NCBI GenBank assembly: GCA_963576565.1
Contig: OY755046.1
Span: 71,355,719 to 71,419,718, forward strand
Source of the DNA: Aspidapion aeneum
Taxonomy: Eukaryota; Arthropoda; Insecta; Coleoptera; Brentidae
Direction: 5' to 3'
DNA length: 64,000 bases
The notes under the pieces were generated by a model. The model did no database searches. It had not been told where the DNA came from and saw only the letters and a list, made by a program, of their open reading frames with translations. Position numbers and translations under genes: made by a program. This document shows, piece by piece, positions 25,779-64,000 of the stretch (positions are counted from its first letter, which is position 1; each line of letters begins with the position of its first letter).

Positions 25779-25957
25779 TCACTTTTTATCGGTTTTCTCT
25801 TTCTCCCTGCTGGTGTCCCCGCGAACCACTTGTACCATTCGCAACGTCAGAACCGCCAAGATGGCGTCCAGTGGATCCATAAAACCTCGCTGCGTCCATT
25901 TTGGAATGGTTGTTCTTGCGTGAGAAAAGCCCAGTTTTTGCAAGATGTAGTCTATAC
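25779..25957 (-). CDS. tweek: tweek terminal exon
   Basis: The acceptor is tttttAG at 25959-25958. The exon starts in phase 1 and ends with TGA. It encodes IDYILQKLGFSHARTTIPKW, RGFMDPLDAIL and a charged tail ending EKEKTDKK, the conserved extreme C-terminus of the family. Confidence 0.94.
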
Positions 25958-40900: not shown

Positions 40901-41609
40901 ACACGAAAACTAATAGAAGAGTACAATAAGTGGGGACTAGAGGTTAATCTCAATAAGACAGAGTATATGTGTATCGGTGGAATGAAACAGGATCTAATCT
41001 TAAATACCGGGCAGCGAATTCAGTCCTGTGATGAGTATAAATACTTAGGTCTTAAAATTACAGCTGACGGAACACTAGACAAAGCTATAAAAGATCGAAA
41101 CGTACAAGGAAGAAAAGCAATAACTTTATTAAATGAAATAATTTGGGACCAAAGTATATCAAAACATAACAAAAAGCTTATATATAACACCATTGTAAAA
41201 AGTATTATTACATACGGCTCAGAAGTATGGCCAATCAAGGAAAGAACAGAAAATATGCTTTCCGCTACGGAGATGGACTATTGGAGAAGAGCAGCAGGGA
41301 AATCAAAAAGAGAAAGAGTTACAAATCAAAGAATAAGAGAAATTATGACAGTGGGGGAACGTTCTTTAGTGGATGATATAAGAACAAAGCAACTGGTGTG
41401 GTACGGACATGTACAAAGAATGAATGATGAAAGACTACCTAAACAAATACTACAATGGAAAACAACTGGCCAAAGAAAACGAGGAAGGCCAAGGAGAAGC
41501 TGGAGAGAAGGAATAGAGAGTGAAATAAGAATAAGAGGCCTAGATGATAAATTATGGGCAAACAGAAACGAGTGGAGATTGGGTATCGGAAGACGTAGAA
41601 CGTTGTTAA

Positions 41610-41654
<45 letters not shown>

Positions 41655-42496
41655 CTAAAGCTTCTGACCTTCCCTTGTGTATTTATCCTAAACTGTCTGA
41701 CGTACATCAAACGAAATCAAGATTTATTTAGAACTCATAGTGATGTTCATTCTCTAGCAACAAGAAACAGGGATAACATAATACCTAGCTTTTACCGAGT
41801 AGAAAGAACACGAAAAGGTACAGACTATTATGCAATTAAATTCTTCAATGTCTTACCACCTAATATTAAATATTAAATCTCTCGAAAAAAAAAGATTCTT
41901 AATGGTAATAAAGAAATACCTAATTCAAAACGCATTCTATTCATTTGAGGAGTACCTCAATAGTAGCTTCGTCCTGTAGGTCTGCCTACGTTTCTTTTAC
42001 TGTTCACCTTTGTGGTTTGTCTGTTTGTTGCAAAGAGCGTGTGTTTTTTTTATCTATTAAATGTCTCATATGTTGTTATATCAATTTTACCAAACTGTAA
42101 TTTTAAAAGGATTTTATATTAAAATGTCAAAAATTTGCTGTACAGTCGGGGACTTTTTAAATTGCCGCCCTCAAAAACAAAAAATATTCCTATTTAAAAT
42201 TCGGAAAAGCAGTTTGAACCAAAACAAAAAAATTGTGAAACTTACCGCTGTCTGTATACATACATATTTAAAAATATATTTTTTTTGATGTCTTTGATTG
42301 ATTAATTTTGGCAGAAAAAAAATACAACGGCAATTTAAAAAGTCCCCGACTGTACAAGTATATTATACAATAATATCTTTAGGTAGGTAATTAATTTATC
42401 TTAAGATGTATTTATATTTTCTATTTTTCTACTTTTGACTTGTAAAAACACTATGTGTACTATTTATCAATAAAAAAACTAAACTAAACTAAACTA

Positions 42497-42559
<63 letters not shown>

Positions 42560-45500: not shown

Positions 45501-48500
45501 CCAAATTATTCCATTTAATAAAGTTATTGCTTTTCTTCCTTGTACGTTTCGATCTTTCATAGCTTTGTCTAGTGTTCCGTCAGCTGTAATTTTTAGACCT
45601 AAGTATTTATACTCATCACAGGACTGAATTCGCTGCCCGGTATTTAAGATTAGATCCTGTTTCATTCCACCGATACACATATACTCTGTCTTATTGAGAT
45701 TAACCTCTAGTCCCCACTTATTGTACTCTTTTATTAGTTTTCGTGTCATATATTCGAGGTCGTCATAATCCTGAGCCACTACTATCTGATCATCGGCGAA
45801 ACATAAAGTATACAAGGTGGTTTCGTCCAACGGAATTCCCATGTTTTGGCAGTTTCTCTTCCATACTTTAAGGACTTGTTCCAAGTATATCTTGAAGAGC
45901 GTAGACGAGATACAACAACCTTGTTTAAGACCTTTATTTACTTTAATAAATAAAATAAATAAATAAAAAAAATTATATTATTGTCTTCTTCTAAAACAAT
46001 GTGTCTCGATTTACGCACCTTCTTGCTTAAAATTCAACATTCTAGACCTCGACAGGTGCCACTTGACAAACTCCACGTTAATTGAAAGCGAATCTTTACG
46101 CTCGCTGTCACTCAGAGGAGACCATTGGGCTTCTTTTAGAGCTGACTTCTTACCTCCGTAAGGGTGAAATATGTATACGGAAAAGTCTGATAGACAACCT
46201 AAAAAATTAAAACAAAATAAAGGGATCCATAACGGCTCTGATACCTCCGTAGCTTCTTTGTTTGAAACTCGTAGACAATGGTGGGTGTGCTTTCGGGCTG
46301 TTCGGCCGTCGTTGTTGGAAATTCATTCTCGACGTTTCGCCATCTCGAGTGGATGGCATCTTCAGGAGATGTTGACTGTTTGTCGACTTCTCGAAGACTG
46401 TTCGAGAAGCCGACAAACAGTCAACATCTCCTGAAGATGCCATCCACCCGAGAAGGCGAAATGTCGAGAACGAATTTCCATGACGACGGCCGAACAGCCC
46501 GAAAGCACACCCACCATCCGACGATGGCCGCGAAAGCCTTTCACAATTTGTACGTAGACAATGATTGAGCAGAAATAAAATTTCGGACTTCCATTGACTT
46601 TATTTATTTTAAAACACGTTTAACGTAACCGTTTTCAAGTATAAACTAAACAATCTAGTCTCTAGGCTACTACTTATACTACTTGGTGTGCAGTTAGTCA
46701 GTGTTGGAGCTCTGTCCCTCCCTCTTACTTTCAAGTGAAAGATAAATTTTACGCGCAAAATGATGGACTTCCGATGGGTTCGTCTCTTTCGCCAGTGGTA
46801 GCAAACATCTACATGGAGTGGTTCGAGGACCATGCGATCAACATAGCAAGTATCAAGTAAAAACTATGGCTACGATACATGGATGACACATTTATTATAT
46901 GGCCGGAAAATGATGACGAACTACAGAATTTTCTACACCATCTGAACGGTATTCGACAAACAATCAAATGCACCGGAAACTGAAAAAGATTTGACCTTAC
47001 CTTTTTTGGATGTTCTTGTCAAACGATTAGACAGAAACATTCAAACCACTGTATATAGGAAACCTACACACACGGGATAGTACCTAAATTTTAAGTGTAA
47101 TCATTCTGTTGCTACAAAACAAGAGCCGTAAATATTTGTAGTAATAAACGTGGAATTTCGTACCCGTGAATTTAAAAATCAAACAAGTTTCGTGGCTAAT
47201 CGGGCAAAAAGGAGTTTTTGTTTCCCTCATATTTTTCCGTGGGTAGCCTGAAAGCTTAACCTCACGGGGGTCCAAGATTTAATGGACACCTAATAAGTGT
47301 TGACAGTTAACTGTTTTATTCACGAGTACGAAATTCCACGTTTGTTAGTATTATTTGGCTTAAAAATTCCGTTGATTGACGTTCACTGTCTTGATGACGG
47401 GTAAAAATGCAATATGCGTTGATCCGGCCTGTCGTAGGTTACGGACTATAGTTGTTTTCTTTTATTTGCATTCGATCTTTTCATTGATCGATATTGTATA
47501 GCAGTGTTTCGCCTGCTTTTGTTTTTTGTTTCTCTCGTATCTCGGTAGATGGCGCTTCTTGCGATAGTTTTCTCACTATTTACATTTGATTAGAGACAAA
47601 ACCGTCTAATTAACTTCGCAAGATTTGTCACATTGACCAGCAGTGTTCTGAGGGTTCCCATAAGAACGAAACAGTTAACTGTCAACACTTATTAGGTGTC
47701 CATTAGATCTTGGACCCCCGTGAGGTTAAGCTTTCAGGCTACCCACGGAAAAATATGAGGGAACAAAAACTTCTTTTTGCCCGATTAGCCACGAGACTTG
47801 TTTGATTTGTAGTAATAATGAAGAATTAACCACAGAAATTAATAACATTAAAAAGGACTTACAACAGAATGGTTATTCCGAGAAATTAATAAACTCAACG
47901 ATCTCTAAAATTAAAATCATAGCAAATGTAGCAAATTCTCAAAGTAATAATTCGTTGGGAGTTATTAACATTCCATATGTTCAAGGGATTTCAGAAAACA
48001 TAAGACGAATAGCCAAGCACTATAATATAAAAACAGTATTTTGTATGTATGTACGACATCCCGTGTGAGTGTGGTAAATCATATGTAGGTGAAAAGAAAT
48101 GCCCTCTTTAGGTTAGAGTAAATGAACATCTAAAAAATACCCAATTAGGGAATATTTAAAAAATCCGGTTTAGCGGATCATGCATGGTCAAATGATCACA
48201 GGATTCAGTGGTCAGAAGCTAAAGTTTTGCATAAGGAGTCGCATTGGCGAAAACGAAAGTTTATTGAAGCTGCGTTTATAATGGAGAATAAAGAAATTTT
48301 CACTCAACCAAGCACAGACATACCAAACATATGAAAACCACTCCTTAAGGAAAACAGGCGTCTTAGGATTAAAAAAGGGGGCGGGCCGTAACACCTGACG
48401 GCACACCAAGTAGTATAAGTAGTAGCCGTAGCCTAGAGACTAGATTGTTTAGTTTAAACCTCAAAACGGTTAGAGATACTTACTAACCGAAACGTCGTGT

Positions 48501-51500
48501 TTTAAAATAAATAAATGGAAGTCCGAAATTTTTTTTCTGTTTCTTTCCTCCCTAGCCTATTAAAACACTAAAGTGCTATATCAGCTTTTAAAACAGTTTT
48601 ATCTCAGAAACGAAAGCTGCTACAAAGTTTTTGGTTTTAACACAAATTATTGAGGAAAATGTGTTGTACTATATTCCGAACACCGCATATTGATGCCATG
48701 TTCCGTTAAAAAATTAGCATATTTTTAAACTGTCATTAGCATTAATAAATTTTGAAATCAGCTCTTTACAGTATTGTATACTATTTTACCTAAAAATTTA
48801 ATCAAAATCAGTTTGACGGTTTAGGAGTTATCGTGCGCCGAACAGGTAAAAATAAAAAACAATTTTTGTAATCTTTTTCACTATCAGCGAGTCCTACCTG
48901 TAACACTAAGTCCTCCGACAGCGGTAGCTGCAGTGTTGGGTGCCCCATCCCCGAATTCGCTTGAAAATAACTCATCTTCGGCTCGTTTCGAACTGAAGAC
49001 AATGTCCAAGGAGGGCAACTGAAGCAAACATTCCACTCTGGAGACTGGCAGGCAACTGAACCTAAATAAAAAGACAAGGTTATACTTAAAAAAAATAATA
49101 AGAATATAATAATAAGATACATAAGAAACTTCACTTAAGGATGATTCTACCAAAAGTGGGCTATATGGATATCATTTTTGGTCATTACCTTTAAATAACA
49201 GTACAGCACAGTAAATAATTTTGTTTTTTTAAATTTATGTAACTAATTAGGTGTAAGCTAAGAAACATTTATTTTCCCAAATTTTAGGAATTAGTGCATA
49301 AAAATGCCAGAGGAATGAGGACCAGAGGAGTTTTTTAATGGTTTTTCAATTTAAATCAAAATCTATTTAGACTACTTAACTTAAGTTTTATATAAACAAA
49401 GTTCCTATACTTATAATTTTAAAACAATCAAAAAAATTATACTATTGATATCAGTCGAATATTTACTTACCAGAGGAATGATAATTGAAGCGTTCCCTTT
49501 TGATTTCTCCGAAAAAAACTAATTTTCTGCCGAAAATAAAAAGATCTATAACTTAAACCAAACTAAAGTTAACATTATCTGTCAAAACTTGTCATCCTCA
49601 CAAGTAAATTAGATATCCAGGGCCGTCTCTTTCTCTAGAAATTAACCGATGGTATTCACAAATATTGTGTTATTAAAAATGGAGCACGTTTAAAATTGTA
49701 AAATTTTCCGGGAAGATGTAAATTCGGATTTTCAAAAATATGACTGCAAACTTAAGTTTTATCAGTTTTTTGATAAATAGTTAAGACTTGGTTAAATATT
49801 ATTTATTAGGATATTTTTTCAATCTGAGTTTTTAATATTTGGTTTGGGACTACACCAGAGGAATGAGGTATTTGCTTTGTAATAAAAAAAATTATAAACT
49901 TGCAATTTTTTTTATACATTAAACTCAAATGCTCCATAAAGAAAACATTTCGTTTTAAATTTTATAACTAAAACTATGCTTCATTTGCAGTCTGTGTTTG
50001 AAAAATATGCATTCCCACTCCACAGCACCATTTTTGTAGAATCATCATAATTCAGTTAGCAGATTCTTGGGTGTTCTCATTGATGACCAGTTGAGGTTTG
50101 AGGAACATATACTTGGGCTAAGTAAAAAACTTTCTTCTGGTTGCTTCGCAGTAAGGTATGTCAGGGCGGAATTGGGTGATACTATAGCCCGGTCAGTTTA
50201 TTTCTCTTTGTTTGAGTCCCATTTGCGGTATGGAATTCCTTTTTGGGGGTTTGCTCATCAGCACCTTCTTAAAATTATTTTTATTTTACAAAAAAAAGCA
50301 GTGCGCTTTTTGTGTAATGTTCACCAAAGGGAATCTTGTAGACCTCATTTTGTTGAAAAAAAAATATTAACCCTCACATCACTGTTTATATTCGAGACAT
50401 CAAGTCTCGTATTTAGAAATATATCATATATTTTTGATACTGGACCCCAACGTCTAACGAGACAAAATGGCAATATTATGCTGCCAGTTCCCAAAAGCAC
50501 ACTGGTCCAGAAATCCCTTATTTATGAAGGCAGAAAGATCTTTAATCATTTGCCTTATGACATTAAGCATGTTGCAACACTCAGACAGTTTAAGAGAAGG
50601 TTGAAAAAACTGCTACTCGATAAACCATATTACTCCTTGTCTGAGTTTTATGACGATAACTTTAGATAGGGTTTATTATCATTTTTACATTGTTTTGTTG
50701 TTTTTTTTTTAGCTTTATTTTAAAGAATGTGATTTTTCAACAGTGTTGTGATTGTTTAGGAATAGAATTTTAATATCAAACCGAATTTTTATCTACTTTT
50801 TTGTTTTCTTAGTTATTTATTTTTTTGACCGCTGCCTTAAGGACTTATTTTTGATTAATTTTAGTACGTGTGTTGCTTTAATTTTTAAATAGTACATTTT
50901 TTACTTTTATTTATGTATTTTACAAAATTTTATTTTAGTTTCTATTTGACATTTTTTTTTTCTGTTTGTTATACTTTCTTGTTGTGATGTTTGTTTTGTT
51001 TTTTTTATTTTGGAATTGTTTATATTTATTGCCAATGAACTTACTTTATTTTTTTTATTACTTTGTTTTTTTTTGTTTAAGGTTTTATACTTTTTATTTT
51101 TTGTATATTTCTTTTTGTTGTTTTAATTCACAATTTTTAAAAGGTTTTTTCAATAGGTTGTTTTAAATTATAAAAAAAAAATAAAACTAAACTAGGGCAT
51201 ACAAGATTTTAAAGTGCTATTAGGTAAGTTATTTGTTATCATTATTTATTTTTAGGACTAGAGATAGCCTGCTTTGTCAACAGAATTTTTTTTCTTGACA
51301 ATAAAGTATTTTTTGAATTGAATTGAATCCTTAAAATAAAAGCATCTCTGACGGATCTGATACCTTCCTAGCTAGCCTATTAGCCTACTTCAACTAAAGC
51401 CATGATATATCAGCCCTGAAAACAGTTTTTTTGTAAATATCTCAGAAACTAAAGCTCCTACGAACACAAATTATTGAGCAAAATTAACTTAAAATTAAAA

Positions 51501-54380
51501 ATGTAAAAAATAATAAAACAAACCTAAATGTGCTGGGTTGCATGTGGAAATAGACAATGACATCTACTGGAAAACTGGCATAAACATAGTTCCCATAATT
51601 AATATCCTGATCCGAAGAAAACATAGAAGTGTCTGTAGGGTTGATGTTTTTAATAGGAATAGGCTCCAAGGTTTGTTCCAAAAACTCTAAAATATGCGGA
51701 CTAATAATAGTTTCTTCTGGAACGCTTTGAAGAGTCATCCAAGCGAAGAGCGACGCTTTTTTTATTCCTTTCTTCGGTTGGTAGCTCAAGTTTTGGATGT
51801 TATAATTTTTAAACGTATCAGATCCTGATATATAGTTGCTAAATTGTAAATTATCCAAACTGGACGTTGGACTATGACCGTAATTTGGATTCGTAATCCC
51901 ATGCATGGACGTTGAGCTTCTGAGAACATCAGGATTAAAGCTTTGAGACTTGAACTCAGAAGCTTCTTGTCTTTTGAACGCCATATCAATTCTAGTTTGT
52001 TCGGAATCGGAATATGGTGCTTTGACTGATTGAAACGCTCTGTCAAAGTCAAACGAAGTATGTTCACTCGACGGGACGTCTTCTACAATTACTTTGGATT
52101 GATATTGAAGTTTGACATCCATTCCTGGAATGTGGAAAATCGTCAAATCTACCAAAGACGAATGTGGTGTGCTTCTTAATTTCGAAGAACTCGACTGACT
52201 TGTTAACTTTTCTTTGTTCTTCCTAACAGCATCAGGACTAGAATGTGTAGAAGTATCTAGTAAACCTGCCGCAGAACAGCTACGGTCTTTTCTAAGACCA
52301 CGATTCTTCAAATCTTCGTTTGTTATGAGGTCCTTGGTGTGCAAAACACATTTACCACTATTTATGAAGACCTTGACGTCCAATTCTAAGTCGACATTGG
52401 GTTCTTGACATTTCTGATGAGTTTGGGAGAGGTTGGAGGTCGCAGTAGATTGGATGGGGCTCGAAGTCAGGATTGAGGAGTCCAGGTCGTAATGTTCCAA
52501 AAGGGATCCTGAAAAGAATAAATATTAGTGCAATTTTTATCTGTACTAGATTCTATGTTTGGGGGGGGGGGGGTTGGGTATTTCATTCAACCATTAACGT
52601 ATTAACCGGAGGAGACCAGGAACCGCGGCAAAAATTCATTCATCAAAACAATTCGATTTGACCCCTAGATGCTTCAATAAGTTGGAAAAGAATAGAAATA
52701 TTTTTTGGAAAGACGATGGCAACGCTGTGCGACACACAGCAGACGTATGTTTATTCTTTATGGTCGATCGATTTACCAGTGACGGCGGCAAAATATTTAT
52801 TTATTAAAAGTAAATACCTAACTTATTAAAACAAGCAATTTAATTTAGTTTACAGCTGAATAGATACCCATTGACAATTAGATGTTTGATTAGGATGCTT
52901 TTAGCTTGGTGTATTTTATTTTAGGTTAGACAACGTTAAAAATTCAGAGTAGGTAAAAAGGACTAACCCAACCTAAAAAATTGCCTCAATCCAAATCTAA
53001 AAAAAAACTGTTTACACAAAAAAAAAACGGTTAAATAAAAAAGGTATACATAAAAAAATTACTTTCCATATTAATAAGATACCTTTTTTACCTTATCTGT
53101 TGAAAATCAAGGCTCGTAGTTCAGTTAAAAGTATCAAAACACCAAAACTTGGGACACCCTGTACATTTTTAACTAAACTTATGTTTAAACAGTTTTAACA
53201 AATAAATAATTATTTATATAATACCCAAAATTTTTTTTTCTGATTTTATATTGATTTCTACGGCACTGGTCTTTGTTTTGTTTTGAAGGTCAAACAAGTT
53301 ATTTAACTTACTTGTAAAACGAAACTTCTGGATTAAAATAGTCGAGATTTTAGCACAAAATACACTCCCACACCATTTTAAAGTCTTTTAAGATTAAATT
53401 TGAGTCCAGATCGAAAATATATTTTAAGAAAAAACACGAAAACAATTCCGAACCGTAAAGAGACAAGTCAAAAACGCCGCTTGACCCTTTACAAAATACT
53501 AATGGGTCCAAAGGGACTACCTTCTAATCAAGAATAGTTTTGTCTCTTTTTCTCGCATCAGTTTAACAAAAGAGGAACAAAATAATATACTTTACGCGGG
53601 CCTAGACGATTGCGGCATCTTTCTAATTCCTTTGTTTTAGTGAGGGACTGTAATCGAGAATAGTTTTGTTTTTTTCTCTCGCACTGGTTTAATAAAGGAA
53701 AACGAAGGAGTAGCAAAATAAATGCTGGAAGCACAAGTTAAAGTTATCACCGCTTGTTATATATCCATATTTGGTCGTGTATAATTAATCTGGTAAGGGT
53801 TTGTAAGAAGAACAGTTTCGTCTTTTTCCGGTGCATTGGTTTAAAAAAGAAATAAAAGTAAAGGAAAGATCGGATAATTTTGGTGATTCTTAAAGAGAAA
53901 GAAAATAGAGTTTTCTATGGACCAAACAAAAATAGTCGATAAGTTCTTTTCTGCAGAAGTACGTTTTTTAAAACAAATTGTTTATCTAGACGGCCGATTT
54001 TTTTGTTTATTTCCTAGTCTCCTCCGGTTAATATGTTAATGCATTCAACGTAAAAATCTGCATCCCTTCCCTTTGTCAAGAAATCCTAACATCCTCTAGG
54101 AAGACAAACAAAGAATGGATTAATCAGGATATCTTACTTCTAGTGGACCAACGAAGAAAGCACAAACATAAAAACGAAACAAAATACAAGGATGTTTAGA
54201 GGGAGAGAGCAAGAATAAGAAAAGCAAAGAAACAATTCTGTGAAGATTTTCTCCGATTTTGAAGAGCTGCCGAGACACATTGTACTGTTCAAATTCATAC
54301 TACCAGAACTACCGTGATCTTCAAGCATCATCTGGTTCGGCATCACGAATCTAAAATGGAAACAGATATTTTTACTCACC
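25779..54380 (-). CDS. tweek: tweek / BLTP1 (KIAA1109) bridge-like lipid transfer protein, C-terminal part
   Basis: This family forms giant (about 5000-residue) rod-like proteins with a hydrophobic groove that move lipids at ER contact sites. Drosophila tweek acts in synaptic vesicle endocytosis. Fourteen exons, 52508-51524 down to 25957-25779, join in frame to about 1178 residues and a TGA. Diagnostic blocks include FPKAWYRRSIVRRMFLGDL, NVMGNVAWMTKDF with GRLSIGSTGHKN, VLSWDQLQLMISKSTTADLL, ATVCKVTRTVIFPPQFKTLQ, FVTVDAEAFFFLHDLI and the C-terminal QKLGFSHARTTIPKW. The end corresponds to the fragile-site-associated C-terminal domain. The 5' exon of this set starts in phase 1, matching the exon repeated in the array above 54380. 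The rest of the gene lies right of the window. No frame break occurs in the fourteen exons. Confidence 0.93.
26194..26386 (-). CDS. tweek: tweek exon
   Basis: The acceptor is ttattttAG and the donor is GTACGT at 26193. It runs from phase 0 to phase 1. It encodes VLSGFERRNLEQDKPKL, DIFAKDWRNYNCKTWHLEPT and VAGKYIEPYG. Confidence 0.93.
26633..26812 (-). CDS. tweek: tweek exon
   Basis: The acceptor is ctttaAAG and the donor is GTAAGT at 26632. It is 180 bases, phase 0-0, encoding 60 residues with VECSFIVEFEDHIFVTVDAE and FFFLHDLITSYLIEKER. Confidence 0.94.
26897..27037 (-). CDS. tweek: tweek exon
   Basis: The acceptor is ctttttctAG and the donor is GTATCT at 26896. It is 141 bases, phase 0-0, encoding VDKFPSLEREKMEN and PNHTREVIFALPGLQ. 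Confidence 0.93.
27357..27544 (-). CDS. tweek: tweek exon
   Basis: The acceptor is gatcttttAG and the donor is GTAAGT at 27356. It runs from phase 1 to phase 0. It encodes EPFPSEDVHIVQTLICSLGL, then HSLRHLSMATVCKVTRTVIF and LQEWFHYAFSNSQIDE, one of the best-conserved stretches of the family. Confidence 0.94.
27703..28510. mobile_element. Non-autonomous hAT element inserted in the 455-bp array
   Basis: Inverted ends cagtgttgccacc and ggtggcaacactg are flanked by the 8-bp duplication acacaagg (27695-27702 and 28511-28518). Subterminal tcggtaga motifs are repeated at both ends. It has no ORF. It carries a second MITE at 27885-28160. Only one of the four array units has it, so it arrived after or during array growth without being copied. 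Confidence 0.93.
27885..28160. mobile_element. Palindromic MITE nested in the hAT element (TA target)
   Basis: The 276-bp element starts gggacctattgcaataaagc and ends with the reverse complement gctttattgcaataggtccc. The inverted arms continue for about 60 bases with gaps. It is flanked by TA on both sides, compatible with a Tc1/mariner-type MITE (inference). Confidence 0.85.
30213..30460. repeat. Penelope/hammerhead-like repeat fragment
   Basis: After the array breaks off there is cctgaggatgattc followed by aggccgaaaccggtcg, the order CUGAnGA ... GAAA found in hammerhead ribozymes at Penelope-like element ends. The stem II pairing is poor, so it is probably decayed. It lies 36 bases from the donor of the exon at 30496. 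Confidence 0.4.
30496..30700 (-). CDS. tweek: tweek exon
   Basis: The acceptor is gcttttttAG and the donor is GTGAGT at 30495. It runs from phase 0 to phase 1. It encodes VAGLQLSTMHSALPSAGTVL, then GSMELHGNNVSLACFHGINF and WALFSLKEPCINF. The 2.95-kb intron after it contains the 455-bp array. Confidence 0.93.
30896..31161 (-). CDS. tweek: tweek exon
   Basis: The acceptor is ttatttttAG and the donor is GTAAAA at 30895. It runs from phase 1 to phase 0. It encodes VLSWDQLQLMISKSTTADLL, KLEEFFSQQFNSSKRAFSGL and a serine/proline/glutamine-rich low-complexity stretch, then RHHRHWQKVLAQ. Confidence 0.94.
31244..31480 (-). CDS. tweek: tweek exon
   Basis: The acceptor is ttttttcAG and the donor is GTAATT at 31243. 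It is 237 bases, phase 1-1. It encodes GNIEIANINTFVHIREEPN, LRALELRLDYMGTSVLMCRV and DEWKLNRPVGPTRRPASIFV. Confidence 0.94.
31600..34980. repeat. Nested inverted-repeat region in a tweek intron
   Basis: Sequence around 31640-31745 (gtcatttgctaccttttcag, agtcacggctaaaaagatat) returns inverted at 34800-34960. Inside it, 31771 (ccaaaatcccacctttaaa) pairs with 33398-33412. A further foldback pairs 32602-32980 with about 33010-33390, including acgtaagctttttattaatg and gttatgatcg-type segments. At least three palindromic elements therefore seem nested or adjacent. No ORF is seen. Confidence 0.7.
33435..34800. mobile_element. Cluster of three foldback F1 copies
   Basis: Two direct copies (about 33440-33935 and 33936-34445) and one inverted partial copy (about 34446-34798) carry gtgggtagcttgaaagctta, cgtttcgtccttatgggact and gcgccatctaccgagatac. 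They match 4781-5306 and 47146-47808. The first copy has a (TA)n run at 33747-33773 where the second reads atatcgatcaatg. Confidence 0.85.
35043..35289 (-). CDS. tweek: tweek exon
   Basis: The acceptor is tctattatAG and the donor is GTAAGT at 35042. It runs from phase 0 to phase 1. It encodes DDPPSTSESKNLAAWETLVL, NVHMNMGNVMGNVAWMTKDF and FGLGGSSLDAKGGIVG. The 3.6-kb intron after it is filled with nested foldback elements. Confidence 0.94.
35361..37348. mobile_element. ~2-kb foldback element with TIR acagg(g/t)tgtccc
   Basis: The left end acaggttgtcccagaactaa is mirrored at 37329-37348. The inverted similarity extends inward for about 400 bases and recurs deeper (gcataaaaatcagtatat and its counterpart near 36720 and 37050). 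No ORF is seen. It has been split by internal duplication, giving several sub-palindromes. A related terminus, gggacaccctgtac, occurs alone near 53152. Confidence 0.8.
38150..38592. mobile_element. Solo LTR inserted in the LINE
   Basis: It begins TGTTATA and ends TATAACA, flanked by the 4-bp duplication tata (38146-38149 and 38593-38596). It contains a TATA-box-like tatataaa (about 38448), an aataaa near the end, and two internal direct copies of a ~110-base stretch with ataaacaacacgtgcattc. Removing it and one tata puts the LINE reading frame back in register across the junction. This is the size and form expected of a Ty3/Gypsy-type or similar solo LTR. Confidence 0.85.
39155..39932 (+). 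mobile_element. 3' end of a second non-LTR element inserted in the LINE
   Basis: The interrupted LINE frame resumes at gatcacata (39933), duplicating gatcatata (39148) with one mismatch. The insert ends with tttgacaataaagctttttc, close to ttgacaataaagtattttt at the end of the LINE at 51290. It is therefore probably the untranslated 3' end of that family. No ORF is kept. Confidence 0.65.
40339..40582 (-). CDS. tweek: tweek exon
   Basis: The acceptor is ttatctAG and the donor is GTAAGA at 40338. It runs from phase 2 to phase 0. It encodes YRRSIVRRMFLGDLSMSG, then a polar serine/histidine/lysine-rich linker ending KTTSLDSNT. A LINE begins about 45 bases upstream of its acceptor. Confidence 0.92.
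40628..41652 (+). mobile_element. LINE (RTE-like family A), 5'-truncated
   Basis: A long plus-strand frame (to about 41730, read through the tail) has [59 protein letters not shown] and an (ata)n-encoded isoleucine/tyrosine tail. The (TA)n tail lies at 41612-41651. Its truncated 5' end lies about 45 bases from the acceptor of the tweek exon at 40582, in opposite orientation to the gene. Confidence 0.93.
41653..42500 (+). mobile_element. CR1/Jockey-type LINE 3' end
   Basis: In broken frames the plus strand encodes HQTKSRF, THSDVHSLATRNRDNIIPSF and YYAIKFFNVLPPNIK, then QNAFYSFEEYLNSS. This is typical of the C-terminal end of CR1/Jockey-type LINE ORFs. It ends in an (aaact)n tail at about 42478-42500, next to a (TA)n run at 42501-42572. 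Confidence 0.75.
42501..42572. repeat. (TA)n microsatellite
   Basis: About 70 bases of almost pure TA dinucleotides, directly after a LINE tail and 56 bases from the donor of the tweek exon at 42628. Confidence 0.95.
42628..42757 (-). CDS. tweek: tweek exon (small)
   Basis: The acceptor is attattatAG and the donor is GTAAGT at 42627. It is 130 bases, phase 1 to phase 2. It encodes GKLKGSDQSRAVIRFSTIVD, IGSASFKYDMRRLTEILAF and the split Trp codon of FPKAW, completed by the exon at 40582. Confidence 0.93.
42800..43060 (-). pseudogene. LINE C-terminal ORF fragment, a third family
   Basis: A 64-residue minus-strand frame contains NRKTKRWNKCILNWRHRENK and RGTPQIKWADDLKKHAGARW. This pattern (W...V..WRPR..KR..GRP..RW.DD) is the known C-terminal tail of RTE/Jockey-type LINE ORF2. 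It is more diverged than families A and B. Confidence 0.7.
43190..43457 (-). mobile_element. LINE (RTE-like family A), very short 3' copy
   Basis: It contains the family tail [20 protein letters not shown] and the 3' terminus atcggtttcacaacgttcta, ending in a short (TA)n at 43190-43200. It has a 21-base internal deletion compared with the other copies. It abuts the Jockey-like element at 43458. Confidence 0.88.
43458..45300 (+). mobile_element. Jockey-like LINE, 5'-truncated
   Basis: Frames at about 43480-44271 and 44287-45024 together cover a Jockey-type [74 protein letters not shown], then [20 protein letters not shown], the catalytic [13 protein letters not shown] and [21 protein letters not shown] stop after FLP (44271) breaks it. 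A poly(A) tail lies at 45280-45300. The minus copy at 11811-14300 is the same family. Confidence 0.93.
45302..45942 (-). mobile_element. LINE (RTE-like family A), truncated at both ends
   Basis: A 210-residue minus frame begins [20 protein letters not shown] and includes [20 protein letters not shown]. It stops at NQRTREII, where the sequence changes to the A-rich tail of the neighbouring Jockey-like element. Confidence 0.9.
46019..46198 (-). CDS. tweek: tweek exon
   Basis: The acceptor is aattttttAG and the donor is GTGCGT at 46018. It is 180 bases, phase 1-1. It encodes CLSDFSVYIFHPYGGKKSAL and RKDSLSINVEFVKWHLSRSR, a strongly conserved family segment. Confidence 0.93.
46277..46527. mobile_element. 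Penelope-type pseudo-LTR palindrome with hammerhead motifs on both strands
   Basis: The arms meet near 46402 and pair over about 120 bases, with ggtgggtgtgctttcgggct at one end and its reverse complement at the other. On the plus strand, ctgaaga (46431-46437) is followed by tgcc, then ggc and gaaa (46455-46460). On the minus strand the same core runs from 46365 to about 46333 with GAAAC. This is the CUGAnGA / stem II / GAAA order of a type I hammerhead. Confidence 0.65.
46573..48535 (+). mobile_element. Penelope-like retroelement, decayed (RT and GIY-YIG remnants)
   Basis: Inverted flanks pair 46583-46700 (ttcggacttccatt, caatctagtctctaggctac) with 48400-48525. Between them the plus strand encodes in broken frames GLPMGSSLSPVVANIYMEWF, the RT catalytic YMDDTFIIWP (about 46870-46905), the linker NIPYVQGISENIRRIAKHYN (47970-48030) and a GIY-YIG nuclease with YDIPCECGKSYVGEKKCPL and LADHAWSNDHRIQWSEAKVL (about 48050-48300). 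Stops and a MITE insertion (47146-47808) show it is dead. Confidence 0.85.
47146..47808. mobile_element. Foldback MITE F1 inserted in the Penelope-like element
   Basis: It is flanked by the 9-bp duplication gtagtaata (47137-47145 and 47809-47817). The left arm (gtgaatttaaaaatcaaaca, cgtgggtagcctgaaagctt) returns inverted at the right end. The centre also carries agatggcgcttcttgcg. It interrupts the linker between the RT and GIY-YIG parts. Confidence 0.88.
48898..49061 (-). CDS. tweek: tweek exon
   Basis: The acceptor is tttttatttAG and the donor is GTAGGA at 48897. It runs from phase 2 to phase 1. It encodes FSCLPVSRVECLLQLPSLD, IVFSSKRAEDELFSSEFGDG and ATAVGGLSVTG. Confidence 0.93.
49062..50042. 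other. tweek intron sequence, nothing recognised
   Basis: A/T-rich intron sequence. The phrase ccagaggaatga appears three times (about 49308, 49471 and 49855), perhaps from a small decayed repeat. No gene is visible. Confidence 0.45.
50043..51330 (+). mobile_element. CR1/Jockey-type LINE, 5'-truncated
   Basis: A 200-residue frame (50067-50669) reads GVLIDDQLRFEEHILGLSKK, SLFESHLRYGIPFWGFAHQH, LQKKAVRFLCNVHQRESCRP and NHLPYDIKHVATLRQFKRRL, ending PYYSLSEFYDDNFR. This is the region after the catalytic domain in CR1/Jockey-type LINEs. A T-rich 3' untranslated region follows, ending gacaataaagtattttttga and a (gaatt)n tail at 51312-51328. Confidence 0.85.
51524..52508 (-). CDS. tweek: tweek large exon (985 bases)
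   Basis: The acceptor is ttcttttcAG at 52510-52509, phase 1 start. The donor is the weak GTTTGT at 51523, phase 2, and it joins in frame to the next exon (STF R FSCLPVSR). It encodes 327 residues: a polar serine-rich stretch, LVDLTIFHIPGMDVKLQYQS, another polar linker and LFAWMTLQSVPEETIISPHI, ending ASFPVDVIVYFHMQPSTF. The ORF opens with SLLEHYDLDSS directly after the acceptor. Confidence 0.92.
52509..54240. other. tweek intron with weak repeats
   Basis: It contains a run of 14 G at 52561-52574 and a lone gggacaccctgtac terminus near 53152. Three degenerate copies of a phrase like agaatagttttgtctctttt followed by a cgca..ggtttaa segment lie near 53528, 53652 and 53808. No exon is recognised before the array. 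Confidence 0.5.
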
Positions 54381-54665
54381 TTCAACAGACTCATATGAAG
54401 CAGGCAACTTCTTCCTCAAAGTAACTTTCTCCCCATCAATATCCAGGTGATCCACCCAATCTCCCAACTGAGCATCTGGTAGACTCATCTCAGAACTAGC
54501 GCTGGGCAAAGATTTCTGTCTATACATCGTTTGAGTGTCACTAAAAGTCACTCTAGCTCCCCACAGTTTTCACCCTGAGACAAGCAGACCTGGATGGCCC
54601 AGATCTTGGAGAGCTATAATAACTTGCTGTACTATCCAATTTTCTACTACCAGGACTACCATGAT
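54380..54665 (-). pseudogene. tweek: tweek array exon copy nearest the unique gene (type B, stop inside)
   Basis: Donor GTGAGT at 54379 and a phase-compatible acceptor (ctgaAG before ATCATGG) define a 286-base copy. Its frame opens HGSPGSRKLDSTASYYSSPR and reaches a TAG after KTVGS, because five bases present in type A are missing. Splicing it to the exon at 52508 in the phase-1 register would therefore truncate the protein. Either it is skipped or it is a dead copy. Confidence 0.7.
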
Positions 54666-55429
54666 CTTCAGGCATCACCGGGCTAGGCATCACGAAGAAA
54701 TGAAAACGAAAACAGATATTTCTACTCACCTTCAACAGACTCATATGAAGCAGGCAACTTCTTCCTCAAAGTAACCTTCTCCCCATCAATATCCAGGTGA
54801 TCCACCCAATCTCCCAACTGAGCATCTGGTAGACTCATCTCAGAACTAGCACTGGGCAAAGAATTTTGTCTATACATCGTTTGAGTGTCACTAAAAGTCA
54901 CTTTAGGTCCCCACAGTTTTCACCCTGAGACAAGCAGACCTGGATGGCCCAGATCTTGGAGAGCTATAATAACTTGCTGTACTATCCAATTTTCCACTAC
55001 CAGGACTACCATGATCTTCAGGCATCACCGGGCTAGGCATCACGAAGAAATGAAAACGAAAACAGATATTTCTACTCAACTTCAACAGACTCATATGAAG
55101 CAGGCAACTTCTTCCTCAAAGTAACTTTCTCCCCATCAATATCCAGGTGATCCACGCAATCTCCCAACTGAGCATCTGGTAGACTCATCTCAGAACTAGC
55201 ACTGGGCAAAGATTTTTGTCTATACATCGTTTGAGTGTCACTAAAAGTCACTCTAGGTCCCCACAGTTTTCACCCTGAGACAAGCAGACCTGGATGGCCC
55301 AGATCTTGGAGAGCTATAATAACTTGCTGTACTATCCAATTTTCCACTACCAGGACTACCATGATCTTCAGGCATCACCGGGCTAGGCATCACGAAGAAA
55401 TAAAAACGAAAACAGATATTTCTACTCAC

Positions 55430-55720
55430 CTTCAACAGACTCATATGAAGCAGGCAACTTCTTCCTCAAAGTAACTTTCTCCCCATCAATATCTAGGTGA
55501 TCCACCCAATCTCCCAACTGAGCATCTGGTAGACTCATCTCAGAACTAGCACTGGGCAAAGATTTCTGTCTATACATCGTTTGAGTGTCACTGAAGGTCA
55601 CTCTAGGTCCAGAATCTACAGTTTTCACTCTAAGAGACGCAGACCTCGAAGGCCCAGATCTTGGAGAGCTTACGTAACTTGCTGTACTGTCCAATTTTCC
55701 GCTACCAGGACTACCATGAT
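55430..55720 (-). CDS. tweek: tweek array exon copy, first intact type A
   Basis: Donor GTGAGT at 55429 and acceptor AG at 55722-55721 give a 291-base exon, exactly 97 codons, phase 1 to phase 1. It can therefore be repeated any number of times without a frameshift, and it joins in frame to the exon at 52508 (VEG then SLLEHYDLDSS). The intron between units would be 64 bases. It encodes a serine/proline-rich stretch (SPRSGPSRSASLRVKTV), then VTFSDTQTMYRQKSLPSASS and LGDWVDHLDIDGEKVTLRKK. The acceptor is inferred from phase; a TAG 17 bases upstream is an alternative that would break the frame. Equivalent intact copies end at 55785, 56140, 56845 and onward. Confidence 0.65.
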
Positions 55721-58700
55721 CTTCAGGCATCACCGGGCTAGGCATCACGAAGAAATGAAAACGAAAACAGATATTTCTACTCACCTTCAACAGACTCATA
55801 TGAAGCAGGCAACTTCTTCCTCAAAGTAACCTTCTCCCCATCAATATCCAGGTGATCCACCCAATCTCCCAACTGAGCATCTGGTAGACTCATCTCAGAA
55901 CTAGCACTGGGCAAAGATTTCTGTCTATACATCGTTTGAGTGTCACTGAAGGTCACTCTAGGTCCAGAATCTACAGTTTTCACTCTAAGAGACGCAGACC
56001 TCGAAGGCCCAGATCTTGGAGAGCTGTCGTAACTTGCTGTACTGTCCAATTTTCCGCTACCAGGACTACCATGATCTTCAGGCATCACCGGGCTAGGCAT
56101 CACGAAGAAATGAAAACGAAAACAGATATTTCTACTCACTTTCAACAGACTCATATGAAGCAGGCAACTTCTTCCTCAAAGTAACCTTCTCCCCATCAAT
56201 ATCCAGGTGATCCACCCAATCTCCCAACTGAGCATCTGGTAGACTCATCTCAGAACTAGCACTGGGCAAAGATTTCTGTCTATACATCGTTTGAGTGTCA
56301 CTGAAGGTCACTCTAGGTCCAGAATCTACAGTTTTCACTCTAAGAGACGCAGACCTCGAAGGCCCAGATCTTGGAGAGCTGTCGTAACTTGCTGTACTGT
56401 CCAATTTTCCGCTACCAGGACTACCATGATCTTCAGGCATCACCGGGCTAGGCATCACGAAGAAATGAAAACGAAAACAGATATTTCTACTCACTTTCAA
56501 CAGACTCATATGAAGCAGGCAACTTCTTCCTCAAAGTAACCTTCTCCCCATCAATATCCAGGTGATCCACCCAATCTCCCAACTGAGCATCTGGTAGACT
56601 CATCTCAGAACTAGCACTGGGCAAAGATTTCTGTCTATACATCGTTTGAGTGTCACTAAAAGTCACTCTAGGTCCCCACAGTTTTCACCCTGAGACAAGC
56701 AGACCTGGATGGCCCAGATCTTGGAGAGCTATAATAACTTTCTGTACTATCCAATTTTCCACTACCAGGACTACCATGATCTTCAGGCATCACCGGGCTA
56801 GGCATCACGAAGAAATAAAAACGAAAACAGATATTTCTACTCACCTTCAACAGACTCATATGAAGCAGGCAACTTCTTCCTCAAAGTAACTTTCTCCCCA
56901 TCAATATCTAGGTGATCCACCCAATCTCCCAACTGAGCATCTGGTAGACTCATCTCAGAACTAGCACTGGGCAAAGATTTCTGTCTATACATCGTTTGAG
57001 TGTCACTGAAGGTCACTCTAGGTCCAGAATCTACAGTTTTCACTCTAAGAGACGCAGACCTCGAAGGCCCAGATCTTGGAGAGCTTACGTAACTTGCTGT
57101 ACTGTCCAATTTTCCGCTACCAGGACTACCATGATCTTCAGGCATCACCGGGCTAGGCATCACGAAGAAATGAAAACGAAAACAGATATTTCTACTCACT
57201 TTCAACAGACTCATATGAAGCAGGCAACTTCTTCCTCAAAGTAACCTTCTCCCCATCAATATCCAGGTGATCCACCCAATCTCCCAACTGAGCATCTGGT
57301 AGACTCATCTCAGAACTAGCACTGGGCAAAGATTTCTGTCTATACATCGTTTGAGTGTCACTAAAAGTCACTCTAGGTCCCCACAGTTTTCACCCTGAGA
57401 CAAGCAGACCTGGATGGCCCAGATCTTGGAGAGCTATAATAACTTGCTGTACTATCCAATTTTCCACTACCAGGACTACCATGATCTTCAGGCATCACCG
57501 GGCTAGGCATCACGAAGAAATGAAAACGAAAACAGATATTTCTACTCACCTTCAACAGACTCATATGAAGAGGCAACTTCTTCCTCAAAGTAACTTTCTC
57601 CCCATCAATATCCAGGTGATCCACCCAATCTCCCAACTGAGCATCTGGTAGACTCATCTCAAAACTAGCACTGGGCAAAGATTTTTGTCTATAAATCGTT
57701 TCAGTGTCACTAAAAGTCACTCTAGGTCCCCACAGTTTTCACCCTGAGACAAGCAGACCTGGATGGCCCAGATCTTGGAGAGCTATAATAACTTGCTGTA
57801 CTATCCAATTTTCCACTACCAGGACTACCATGATCTTCAGGCATCACCGGGCTAGGCATCACGAAGAAATGAAAACGAAAACAGATATTTCTACTCACCT
57901 TCAACAGACTCATATGAAGAGGCAACTTCTTCCTCAAAGTAACTTTCTCCCCATCAATATCCAGGTGATCCACCCAATCTCCCAACTGAGCATCTGGTAG
58001 ACTCATCTCAAAACTAGCACTGGGCAAAGATTTTTGTCTATACATCGTTTCAGTGTCACTAAAAGTCACTCTAGGTCCCCACAGTTTTCACCCTGAGACA
58101 AGCAGACCTGGATGGCCCAGATCTTGGAGAGCTATAATAACTTGCTGTACTATCCAATTTTCCACTACCAGGACTACCATGATCTTCAGGCATCACCGGG
58201 CTAGGCATCACGAAGAAATGAAAACGAAAACAGATATTTCTACTCACCTTCAACAGACTCATATGAAGCAGGCAACTTCTTCCTCAAAGTAACCTTCTCC
58301 CCATCAATATCCAGGTGATCCACCCAATCTCCCAACTGAGCATCTGGTAGACTCATCTCAGAACTAGCACTGGGCAAAGATTTCTGTCTATACATCGTTT
58401 GAGTGTCACTGAAGGTCACTCTAGGTCCAGAATCTACAGTTTTCACTCTAAGAGACGCAGACCTCGAAGGCCCAGATCTTGGAGAGCTGTCGTAACTTGC
58501 TGTACTGTCCAATTTTCCGCTACCAGGACTACCATGATCTTCAGGCATCACCGGGCTAGGCATCACGAAGAAATGAAAACGAAAACAGATATTTCTACTC
58601 ACTTTCAACAGACTCATATGAAGCAGGCAACTTCTTCCTCAAAGTAACCTTCTCCCCATCAATATCCAGGTGATCCACCCAATCTCCCAACTGAGCATCT

Positions 58701-61700
58701 GGTAGACTCATCTCAGAACTAGCACTGGGCAAAGATTTCTGTCTATACATCGTTTGAGTGTCACTGAAGGTCACTCTAGGTCCAGAATCTACAGTTTTCA
58801 CTCTAAGAGACGCAGACCTCGAAGGCCCAGATCTTGGAGAGCTGTCGTAACTTGCTGTACTGTCCAATTTTCCGCTACCAGGACTACCATGATCTTCAGG
58901 CATCACCGGGCTAGGCATCACGAAGAAATGAAAACGAAAACAGATATTTCTACTCACTTTCAACAGACTCATATGAAGCAGGCAACTTCTTCCTCAAAGT
59001 AACCTTCTCCCCATCAATATCCAGGTGATCCACCCAATCTCCCAACTGAGCATCTGGTAGACTCATCTCAGAACTAGCACTGGGCAAAGATTTCTGTCTA
59101 TACATCGTTTGAGTGTCACTAAAAGTCACTCTAGGTCCCCACAGTTTTCACCCTGAGACAAGCAGACCTGGATGGCCCAGATCTTGGAGAGCTATAATAA
59201 CTTTCTGTACTATCCAATTTTCCACTACCAGGACTACCATGATCTTCAGGCATCACCGGGCTAGGCATCACGAAGAAATAAAAACGAAAACAGATATTTC
59301 TACTCACCTTCAACAGACTCATATGAAGCAGGCAACTTCTTCCTCAAAGTAACTTTCTCCCCATCAATATCTAGGTGATCCACCCAATCTCCCAACTGAG
59401 CATCTGGTAGACTCATCTCAGAACTAGCACTGGGCAAAGATTTTTGTCTATACATCGTTTGAGTGTCACTAAAAGTCACTCTAGGTCCCCACAGTTTTCA
59501 CCCTGAGACAAGCAGACCTGGATGGCCCAGATCTTGGAGAGCTATAATAACTTGCTGTACTATCCAATTTTCCACTACCAGGACTACCATGATCTTCAGG
59601 CATCACCGGGCTAGGCATCACGAAGAAATAAAAACGAAAACAGATATTTCTACTCACCTTCAACAGACTCATATGAAGCAGGCAACTTCTTCCTCAAAGT
59701 AACTTTCTCCCCATCAATATCTAGGTGATCCACCCAATCTCCCAACTGAGCATCTGGTAGACTCATCTCAGAACTAGCACTGGGCAAAGATTTCTGTCTA
59801 TACATCGTTTGAGTGTCACTGAAGGTCACTCTAGGTCCAGAATCTACAGTTTTCACTCTAAGAGACGCAGACCTCGAAGGCCCAGATCTTGGAGAGCTTA
59901 CGTAACTTGCTGTACTGTCCAATTTTCCGCTACCAGGACTACCATGATCTTCAGGCATCACCGGGCTAGGCATCACGAAGAAATGAAAACGAAAACAGAT
60001 ATTTCTACTCACCTTCAACAGACTCATATGAAGCAGGCAACTTCTTCCTCAAAGTAACCTTCTCCCCATCAATATCCAGGTGATCCACCCAATCTCCCAA
60101 CTGAGCATCTGGTAGACTCATCTCAGAACTAGCACTGGGCAAAGATTTCTGTCTATACATCGTTTGAGTGTCACTGAAGGTCACTCTAGGTCCAGAATCT
60201 ACAGTTTTCACTCTAAGAGACGCAGACCTCGAAGGCCCAGATCTTGGAGAGCTGTCGTAACTTGCTGTACTGTCCAATTTTCCGCTACCAGGACTACCAT
60301 GATCTTCAGGCATCACCGGGCTAGGCATCACGAAGAAATGAAAACGAAAACAGATATTTCTACTCACTTTCAACAGACTCATATGAAGCAGGCAACTTCT
60401 TCCTCAAAGTAACCTTCTCCCCATCAATATCCAGGTGATCCACCCAATCTCCCAACTGAGCATCTGGTAGACTCATCTCAGAACTAGCACTGGGCAAAGA
60501 TTTCTGTCTATACATCGTTTGAGTGTCACTGAAGGTCACTCTAGGTCCAGAATCTACAGTTTTCACTCTAAGAGACGCAGACCTCGAAGGCCCAGATCTT
60601 GGAGAGCTGTCGTAACTTGCTGTACTGTCCAATTTTCCGCTACCAGGACTACCATGATCTTCAGGCATCACCGGGCTAGGCATCACGAAGAAATGAAAAC
60701 GAAAACAGATATTTCTACTCACCTTCAACAGACTCATATGAAGCAGGCAACTTCTTCCTCAAAGTAACTTTCTCCCCATCAATATCTAGGTGATCCACCC
60801 AATCTCCCAACTGAGCATCTGGTAGACTCATCTCAGAACTAGCACTGGGCAAAGATTTCTGTCTATACATCGTTTGAGTGTCACTAAAAGTCACTCTAGG
60901 TCCCCACAGTTTTCACCCTGAGACAAGCAGACCTGGATGGCCCAGATCTTGGAGAGCTATAATAACTTTCTGTACTATCCAATTTTCCACTACCAGGACT
61001 ACCATGATCTTCAGGCATCACCGGGCTAGGCATCACGAAGAAATAAAAACGAAAACAGATATTTCTACTCACCTTCAACAGACTCATATGAAGCAGGCAA
61101 CTTCTTCCTCAAAGTAACTTTCTCCCCATCAATATCTAGGTGATCCACCCAATCTCCCAACTGAGCATCTGGTAGACTCATCTCAGAACTAGCACTGGGC
61201 AAAGATTTCTGTCTATACATCGTTTGAGTGTCACTGAAGGTCACTCTAGGTCCAGAATCTACAGTTTTCACTCTAAGAGACGCAGACCTCGAAGGCCCAG
61301 ATCTTGGAGAGCTTACGTAACTTGCTGTACTGTCCAATTTTCCGCTACCAGGACTACCATGATCTTCAGGCATCACCGGGCTAGGCATCACGAAGAAATG
61401 AAAACGAAAACAGATATTTCTACTCACCTTCAACAGACTCATATGAAGCAGGCAACTTCTTCCTCAAAGTAACCTTCTCCCCATCAATATCCAGGTGATC
61501 CACCCAATCTCCCAACTGAGCATCTGGTAGACTCATCTCAGAACTAGCACTGGGCAAAGATTTCTGTCTATACATCGTTTGAGTGTCACTGAAGGTCACT
61601 CTAGGTCCAGAATCTACAGTTTTCACTCTAAGAGACGCAGACCTCGAAGGCCCAGATCTTGGAGAGCTTACGTAACTTGCTGTACTGTCCAATTTTCCGC

Positions 61701-64000
61701 TACCAGGACTACCATGATCTTCAGGCATCACCGGGCTAGGCATCACGAAGAAATGAAAACGAAAACAGATATTTCTACTCACTTTCAACAGACTCATATG
61801 AAGCAGGCAACTTCTTCCTCAAAGTAACCTTCTCCCCATCAATATCCAGGTGATCCACCCAATCTCCCAACTGAGCATCTGGTAGACTCATCTCAGAACT
61901 AGCACTGGGCAAAGATTTCTGTCTATACATCGTTTGAGTGTCACTGAAGGTCACTCTAGGTCCAGAATCTACAGTTTTCACTCTAAGAGACGCAGACCTC
62001 GAAGGCCCAGATCTTGGAGAGCTGTCGTAACTTGCTGTACTGTCCAATTTTCCGCTACCAGGACTACCATGATCTTCAGGCATCACCGGGCTAGGCATCA
62101 CGAAGAAATGAAAACGAAAACAGATATTTCTACTCACTTTCAACAGACTCATATGAAGCAGGCAACTTCTTCCTCAAAGTAACCTTCTCCCCATCAATAT
62201 CCAGGTGATCCACCCAATCTCCCAACTGAGCATCTGGTAGACTCATCTCAGAACTAGCACTGGGCAAAGATTTCTGTCTATACATCGTTTGAGTGTCACT
62301 AAAAGTCACTCTAGGTCCCCACAGTTTTCACCCTGAGACAAGCAGACCTGGATGGCCCAGATCTTGGAGAGCTATAATAACTTTCTGTACTATCCAATTT
62401 TCCACTACCAGGACTACCATGATCTTCAGGCATCACCGGGCTAGGCATCACGAAGAAATAAAAACGAAAACAGATATTTCTACTCACCTTCAACAGACTC
62501 ATATGAAGCAGGCAACTTCTTCCTCAAAGTAACTTTCTCCCCATCAATATCTAGGTGATCCACCCAATCTCCCAACTGAGCATCTGGTAGACTCATCTCA
62601 GAACTAGCACTGGGCAAAGATTTTTGTCTATACATCGTTTGAGTGTCACTAAAAGTCACTCTAGGTCCCCACAGTTTTCACCCTGAGACAAGCAGACCTG
62701 GATGGCCCAGATCTTGGAGAGCTATAATAACTTGCTGTACTATCCAATTTTCCACTACCAGGACTACCATGATCTTCAGGCATCACCGGGCTAGGCATCA
62801 CGAAGAAATAAAAACGAAAACAGATATTTCTACTCACCTTCAACAGACTCATATGAAGCAGGCAACTTCTTCCTCAAAGTAACTTTCTCCCCATCAATAT
62901 CTAGGTGATCCACCCAATCTCCCAACTGAGCATCTGGTAGACTCATCTCAGAACTAGCACTGGGCAAAGATTTCTGTCTATACATCGTTTGAGTGTCACT
63001 GAAGGTCACTCTAGGTCCAGAATCTACAGTTTTCACTCTAAGAGACGCAGACCTCGAAGGCCCAGATCTTGGAGAGCTTACGTAACTTGCTGTACTGTCC
63101 AATTTTCCGCTACCAGGACTACCATGATCTTCAGGCATCACCGGGCTAGGCATCACGAAGAAATGAAAACGAAAACAGATATTTCTACTCACCTTCAACA
63201 GACTCATATGAAGCAGGCAACTTCTTCCTCAAAGTAACCTTCTCCCCATCAATATCCAGGTGATCCACCCAATCTCCCAACTGAGCATCTGGTAGACTCA
63301 TCTCAGAACTAGCACTGGGCAAAGATTTCTGTCTATACATCGTTTGAGTGTCACTGAAGGTCACTCTAGGTCCAGAATCTACAGTTTTCACTCTAAGAGA
63401 CGCAGACCTCGAAGGCCCAGATCTTGGAGAGCTGTCGTAACTTGCTGTACTGTCCAATTTTCCGCTACCAGGACTACCATGATCTTCAGGCATCACCGGG
63501 CTAGGCATCACGAAGAAATGAAAACGAAAACAGATATTTCTACTCACTTTCAACAGACTCATATGAAGCAGGCAACTTCTTCCTCAAAGTAACCTTCTCC
63601 CCATCAATATCCAGGTGATCCACCCAATCTCCCAACTGAGCATCTGGTAGACTCATCTCAGAACTAGCACTGGGCAAAGATTTCTGTCTATACATCGTTT
63701 GAGTGTCACTGAAGGTCACTCTAGGTCCAGAATCTACAGTTTTCACTCTAAGAGACGCAGACCTCGAAGGCCCAGATCTTGGAGAGCTGTCGTAACTTGC
63801 TGTACTGTCCAATTTTCCGCTACCAGGACTACCATGATCTTCAGGCATCACCGGGCTAGGCATCACGAAGAAATGAAAACGAAAACAGATATTTCTACTC
63901 ACCTTCAACAGACTCATATGAAGCAGGCAACTTCTTCCTCAAAGTAACTTTCTCCCCATCAATATCTAGGTGATCCACCCAATCTCCCAACTGAGCATCT

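Follow-up and report, generated by a model that had tools for sequence, protein, structure and literature searches.

How does a conserved gene accommodate a long tandem array grown from one of its own exons? The question is raised by 64,000 nucleotides of the beetle Aspidapion aeneum (Brentidae; assembly GCA_963576565.1, contig OY755046.1, positions 71,355,719 to 71,419,718 of the forward strand), the stretch that we refer to as the window. A sequence-only reading of this DNA had reported at least 27 tandem copies of one internal exon of tweek/BLTP1, each with the same donor and a short intron, and had offered three fates for them: serial in-frame splicing as a coding variable number of tandem repeats (VNTR), a source of circular RNAs, or a non-functional satellite. 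The array is real, and the answer that we favor with moderate confidence, judging from sequence, is that it constitutes a satellite-like array of donor-only exon tails within tweek, one copy of which would enter the mRNA while the rest are removed as intron.

Tandem Repeats Finder placed the array at 54300-64000 with a period of 355 (27.5 copies, 96% matches) and a score of 17117; the 25 other entries for the window scored 50-3280. Cut at the donor, the array resolved into 27 complete head-to-tail units (u1 to u27, counted from the window end inward) plus a partial unit at each edge, one leaving the window at 64000 and the other, u28, diverged; the proposed copy number therefore holds. Fifteen units are 355 bp long, nine 350 bp, two 349 bp, and one 352 bp, the last being 350 plus 2 bases owing to the cut placed before u28. 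Read inward from the window end, the types of successive units are A C B E D A F B G A C B E D A C H I J B D A C B K L M. The core order A-C-B-E-D underlies a higher-order repeat whose nine-unit block recurs exactly, and a second exact block within the array measures 1338 bp. Head-to-tail arrangement, homogenization, and higher-order periodicity, all features of satellites with higher-order repeats, are thus present. Changes seen in no other unit are carried by u17-u18 and the edge units u25-u27.

The units fall into two classes. Fifteen of the 27 complete units (u1-3, u6-8, u10-12, u15-16, u20, and u22-24) are 355 bp long and open over 97 codons, with a mean identity of 99.3%. The other 12 (u4-5, u9, u13-14, u17-19, u21, and u25-27; mean identity 98.6%) share a 5-bp deletion that shifts the frame and leads to a stop 37 codons on; u17 and u18 carry a further 1-bp deletion. 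Neither the frameshift nor the higher-order repeat had appeared in the sequence-only reading.

The assignment of the unit to one internal tweek/BLTP1 exon proved correct. The best match of the array exon is BLTP1 of Cylas formicarius (88% identity over 100% of the exon, E 2e-44), and BLTP1/tweek proteins of beetles and other insects also match (79 proteins at E up to 1 among 167 candidates). In transcript sense, the whole array sits upstream of the tweek exon starting at 52508, which contains Pfam BLTP1_C (E 1.2e-29); the best identities of this exon, 70-73%, are to several weevils, and none of the 31 hits at E 1e-60, from candidates limited by length, is identical. Residues 3795-4984 of Cylas BLTP1 are colinear with the 14 exons from 52508 to the stop codon at 25781-25779 (13 tblastn matches, one across an intron), and a scan of nine stretches detected PF25040 in four of them, colinear with the profile. 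All 14 exons are open and their introns are GT-AG; the tweek gene is structurally intact within the window. The core motif of the array segment occurs once in 82 of 83 relatives from two protein searches, and the exception, P0083, lacks a match even when up to 3 substitutions are allowed; these relatives are database representatives, mostly predicted proteins, in which an array collapsed by the annotator would stay invisible. Among the titles and abstract openings listed by keyword searches of an open-access library, none describes a tandem exon array in tweek/BLTP1.

We built position matrices from this gene's own 14 acceptors and 13 donors in the window. The donors scored 6.6-10.5 in training, and the acceptors scored 11.4-18.8 in training and 5.7-16.0 when left out one at a time. 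Measured in this way, the units, homogenized as they are, show a strong donor and an exon body in every complete copy, with one donor exception, and no AG scoring like the acceptors of the gene. As the sequence-only reading had noted, the donor is common to the units: 27 of the 28 read GTGAGT, and only that after u25 (~55079) is altered, to TTGAGT, losing its GT. In the context GAAG|GTGAGT the array donor scored 9.8 (99.8th percentile of GTs), and in units ending AAA it scored 7.2 (98.3th percentile). Its phase, 1, equals the acceptor phase at 52509; if the donor is left unused, the frame ends at an in-frame TAG (GAA GGT GAG TAG, read from the sequence).

The acceptors were a different matter. 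The site GCCTGAAG|AT, on which the sequence-only reading had relied, lies 17 nt past another AG and scored -11.4 in u2, which puts it at the 13.8th percentile among the 2858 AGs that lie outside the array. The proposed exon of 291 bases and phase 1-1 is right in length and phase (97 codons) if this site is used, but the site itself is weak, and the short intron between the donor and GCCTGAAG|AT was not confirmed. The earlier AG, CCTAG, scored -3.2 (64th percentile) and is in the wrong phase for serial splicing; used in series, it makes the next unit read GCC CGG TGA, a stop (read from the sequence). Among the 914 AGs scored in the array, the best inside any complete unit reached 4.2 and is the donor's own AAG. 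The top-scoring AG of the whole array (TTTCCATTTTAG; 9.4, 99.1th percentile) lies in u28, downstream of all 28 donors. A circular RNA from the array would need an acceptor upstream of a donor within it, and this only acceptor-like site is on the wrong side. The complete units are probably donor-only, with no credible acceptor.

A comparison with Cylas bears on where the unit begins. In frame, the 30 nt that follow GTG of the donor translate as SRNICFRFHF beside FVMPSP, where Cylas has SKNSTFRSKS beside FVAPSP. The score of SRNICFRFHF against Cylas, 15, was reached with a frequency of 1.2e-4 in 200000 shuffles, and 154 of the 107940 positions compared across the window reach it as well; counted by identities (4/10), the same comparison is weaker (p 0.0019; 387 of 107940 positions). 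Among the 25 of 72 relatives listed, P0006 and P0008 also scored 15, and the other 22 besides Cylas scored 2-10. From this resemblance, the unit may consist of the truncated exon and its donor and contain no native intron. Alternatively, the TTTTAG|A of u28, which stands directly before the same FV codons and resembles a genuine acceptor (99.1th percentile), may be the old native acceptor. On either view, the complete units are still left without a credible acceptor.

We propose that a tandem duplication set copies of the 3′ portion of a single tweek exon, each with the donor, head to tail and that unequal exchange then expanded and homogenized the array. The 5′-most copy, beyond the window, would keep the native acceptor, and its donor would be spliced directly to the in-phase acceptor at 52509, giving an mRNA with one copy of the unit. 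Because every unit supplies a donor and lacks a credible acceptor, splicing would use the first donor and remove the remaining units with the intron. The protein would be normal and the extra copies mostly passengers, so that 12 units could break and then multiply. Of the fates offered by the sequence-only reading, the non-functional satellite grown from one exon comes close to this explanation. Satellite DNA with higher-order repeats is arranged head to tail, homogenized, and organized in higher-order blocks, with a decayed edge. The tweek array resembles it in all four respects and differs from the usual satellite in having grown from a coding exon with its splice donor, inside an otherwise open conserved gene. 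If the units do combine a strong donor with no acceptor, the gene can host a large coding-derived satellite cheaply, the first donor hiding the rest; this would provide a simple rule for the survival of tandem exon arrays in conserved genes and would warn annotators that such units may be miscounted as exons.

Several points weigh against this explanation. The acceptor matrix, built from 14 sites of one gene, separates imperfectly and ranks rather than decides: 99 of the 2858 AGs outside the array, counting the gene's own acceptors, score at least as high as the weakest left-out acceptor. Given the good acceptor-like site in u28, ancestral units may once have had an acceptor. Two exon lineages also appear from their substitutions to have been constrained at the protein level during most of the time since they separated, which would not be expected of a purely passive array.

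The last point comes from comparing open with broken units. Units u2 (open) and u4 (broken) differ by 15 changes on 63.7 synonymous sites and by 2 on 221.3 nonsynonymous sites (p 1.5e-8). This result depends on a total of 17 differences, of which 14 fall within 45 codons, and on an analysis not planned beforehand. Against u9, u27, and u17, u2 gave ratios of 14:3, 14:4, and 14:4 (p below 1e-6 for u27 and u17). Most of what separates the two subfamilies lies at unit positions 80-195, where their mean identity is 86.4% and the changes are mostly synonymous; the flanks are 99.3% and 98.4% identical. Synonymous divergence amounts to 0.28 over the exon and 0.54 in the first 45 codons. Inside the broken subfamily, by our reading, most changes alter an amino acid, as expected after loss of the frame. 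The open pair u2/u3 differs by 2.5 synonymous and 1.5 nonsynonymous changes, too few for a test, and the open units as a whole differ too little to test current selection. By comparison, u28 and u2 differ near neutrally, by 5.3 synonymous and 17.7 nonsynonymous changes (pN 0.23), over 32 codons at the exon start only (Fisher p 7e-5 on rounded counts); the synonymous depth of u28 is similar to that of the subfamily split (0.29 vs. 0.24). We considered one functional copy with a passive array overwritten at times as the cause of the 15:2 ratio and ruled it out: one lineage would then have evolved neutrally over roughly half of the combined branch, with 31 nonsynonymous changes expected against 2 seen [P(≤2) 1.4e-11]. 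No proposed explanation fully accounts for the synonymous divergence at positions 80-195.

A passive array leaves the two constrained lineages unexplained, and the gap would be filled most simply by a tract converted from another functional source. Two functional sources of the tweek exon would once have existed, the additional one being a second tweek gene, a partner on a sex chromosome, or an alternative exon; from one of the two, ∼110 bp would have been gene-converted into units of a passive array. Divergence confined to positions 80-195 between near-identical flanks has the shape of such a tract, and the combined branches are unlikely to have been neutral over 20% or more of their length (P 3e-4 at 20%, 0.05 at 10%). 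However, no second source was seen in the 64-kb window, and the proteins of 82 of the 83 relatives show the motif once. We regard this history as a minor possibility; it is compatible with the favored explanation and covers the part left open there. With similarly low confidence, the substitutions could be taken to mean that at least two copies of the array exon were translated and selected as protein side by side for a long time. The bridge protein of this weevil lineage would then have had, or would still have, an alternative or repeated conserved serine-rich linker, and the present donor-only array would be its remains or a regulated form. The two-subfamily pattern provides a means of asking whether very large proteins ever contain translated exon arrays.

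Serial splicing, which the sequence-only reading had raised as a coding VNTR, is improbable in our estimate. Open units would be joined through GCCTGAAG|AT, so that every one of them lengthens a loop of tweek by 97 residues, and broken units would be skipped. The exon phase, the 15 open units, and the synonymous excess between u2 and u4 fit this scheme, the excess arguing for a coding past. Structure prediction fits it too: AlphaFold2, run with 17 sequences, returned a model of low confidence [mean predicted local distance difference test (pLDDT) 61, predicted template modeling score (pTM) 0.18] in which the chain is loose apart from two short hairpins, with strands at residues 40-53 and 85-94, and length variation within the BLTP1 family has been reported in disordered loops (PMC7613979). 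The parts SSP, GPSRSASL, GPRVTF, and RQ.SLP are invariant or nearly so in the 17 aligned sequences, and the linker is therefore under some constraint. In contrast, serial splicing would depend on an acceptor at the 14th percentile placed after another AG, so that by matrix score the units have the donors of a coding VNTR and lack its acceptors; 12 of the 27 units have lost the frame and would have to be skipped; and the few differences among open units provide no test of current selection. We set this scheme aside as the main explanation. By analogy, the nearest coding example is kringle IV type 2 (KIV-2) of human LPA, likewise an intragenic tandem repeat of exon sequence with tens of copies and subtypes marked by silent changes (PMC6314250). 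The KIV-2 unit spans 5.6 kb, with two exons and a 4-kb intron, and its copy number gives rise to more than 40 protein isoforms (PMC6314250), whereas the tweek unit of 355 bp has a donor without a credible acceptor and is frameshifted in 12 of 27 copies.

We consider it very unlikely that the array is an assembly artefact in which mis-resolved repeats created the long exact blocks and the true copy number is much lower. The exact 2330-bp self-match would fit such an error, but the private changes of u17-u18 and u25-u27 and the diverged edge unit u28 are as in real arrays, and an assembler cannot make two diverged subfamilies from one copy. Dscam copies are diversified, and each has both splice sites. 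Dscam-type arrays resemble the tweek array in carrying many tandem copies of one internal exon, there spliced in a mutually exclusive manner (PMC1397879); the tweek copies differ in having no high-scoring acceptor each, in being near-identical, and in being frequently broken. A cluster of mutually exclusive exons, in which a single unit is chosen per transcript, would tolerate any exon phase but is scarcely credible here, as the complete units show neither an acceptor beside each donor by matrix score nor diversified copies by identity, and a choice among open units that are 99.3% identical would give almost no diversity.

Table 1. Coordinates of the array, its host gene, and other features of the window
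Feature	Position	Strand	Remarks
tweek exon tandem array	54240..64000	-	Tandem Repeats Finder with unit split and alignment; continues beyond window end
First and last complete units	u1 63901-63547; u27 54728-54377	-	Unit split
Open 355-bp unit u2 (example)	63192..63546	-	97 codons open, 63484 to 63194
Broken 350-bp unit u4 (example)	62487..62836	-	5-bp deletion; stop 37 codons on
Diverged 137-bp partial unit u28	54240..54376	-	3′ edge; 75% identity to u2 over 125 bp
Higher-order repeat block, nine units	61671..64000	-	2330 bp; exact second copy from 60820 downward, offset 3180; clipped by window end
Acceptor of the sequence-only reading, u2	63484..63485	-	GCCTGAAG|AT
Earlier AG, u2	63501..63502	-	CCTAG
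Top-scoring AG of array, u28	54351..54352	-	TTTCCATTTTAG
Next tweek exon downstream	51524..52508	-	Acceptor TTCTTTTCAG|GA, phase 1, fits array donor phase 1; Pfam BLTP1_C
Remaining 13 tweek exons	25779..49061	-	In order, open to stop codon
Starts of remaining 13 tweek exons	49061, 46198, 42757, 40582, 35289, 31480, 31161, 30700, 27544, 27037, 26812, 26386, 25957	-	
Second tandem array	28507-30216		455 bp x 3.8 copies, 97%; in tweek intron between exons 30700-30496 and 27544-27357; tandem repeat scan
ATP-citrate lyase-like exons	614-2070, 15249-15518	+	PF00549 E 8e-18 at 1522-2067; PF00285 E 2e-8 at 15249-15518
RVT_1 reverse-transcriptase fragments	9321-10529, 40607-41728, 44272-45021		Two within tweek introns
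hAT dimerization fragment	2986-3408		

Elsewhere in the window, we set aside the second tandem array as another exon array: its minus-strand frames have frequent stops, and no minus-strand tblastn match to Cylas BLTP1 was found there at E 1. Translated on the minus strand, the second array is in part similar to a stretch near 27692. On the other strand, we read the neighboring gene as ATP-citrate lyase from its profile matches; the profile scan gave no Pfam match for 614-970. Just past the 3′ end of tweek lies a direct duplication (∼24165-24485 and 24870-25190, offset 705 bp) with the same short reading frames in both copies. Further reading frames similar to the reverse-transcriptase and hAT fragments were seen by eye.

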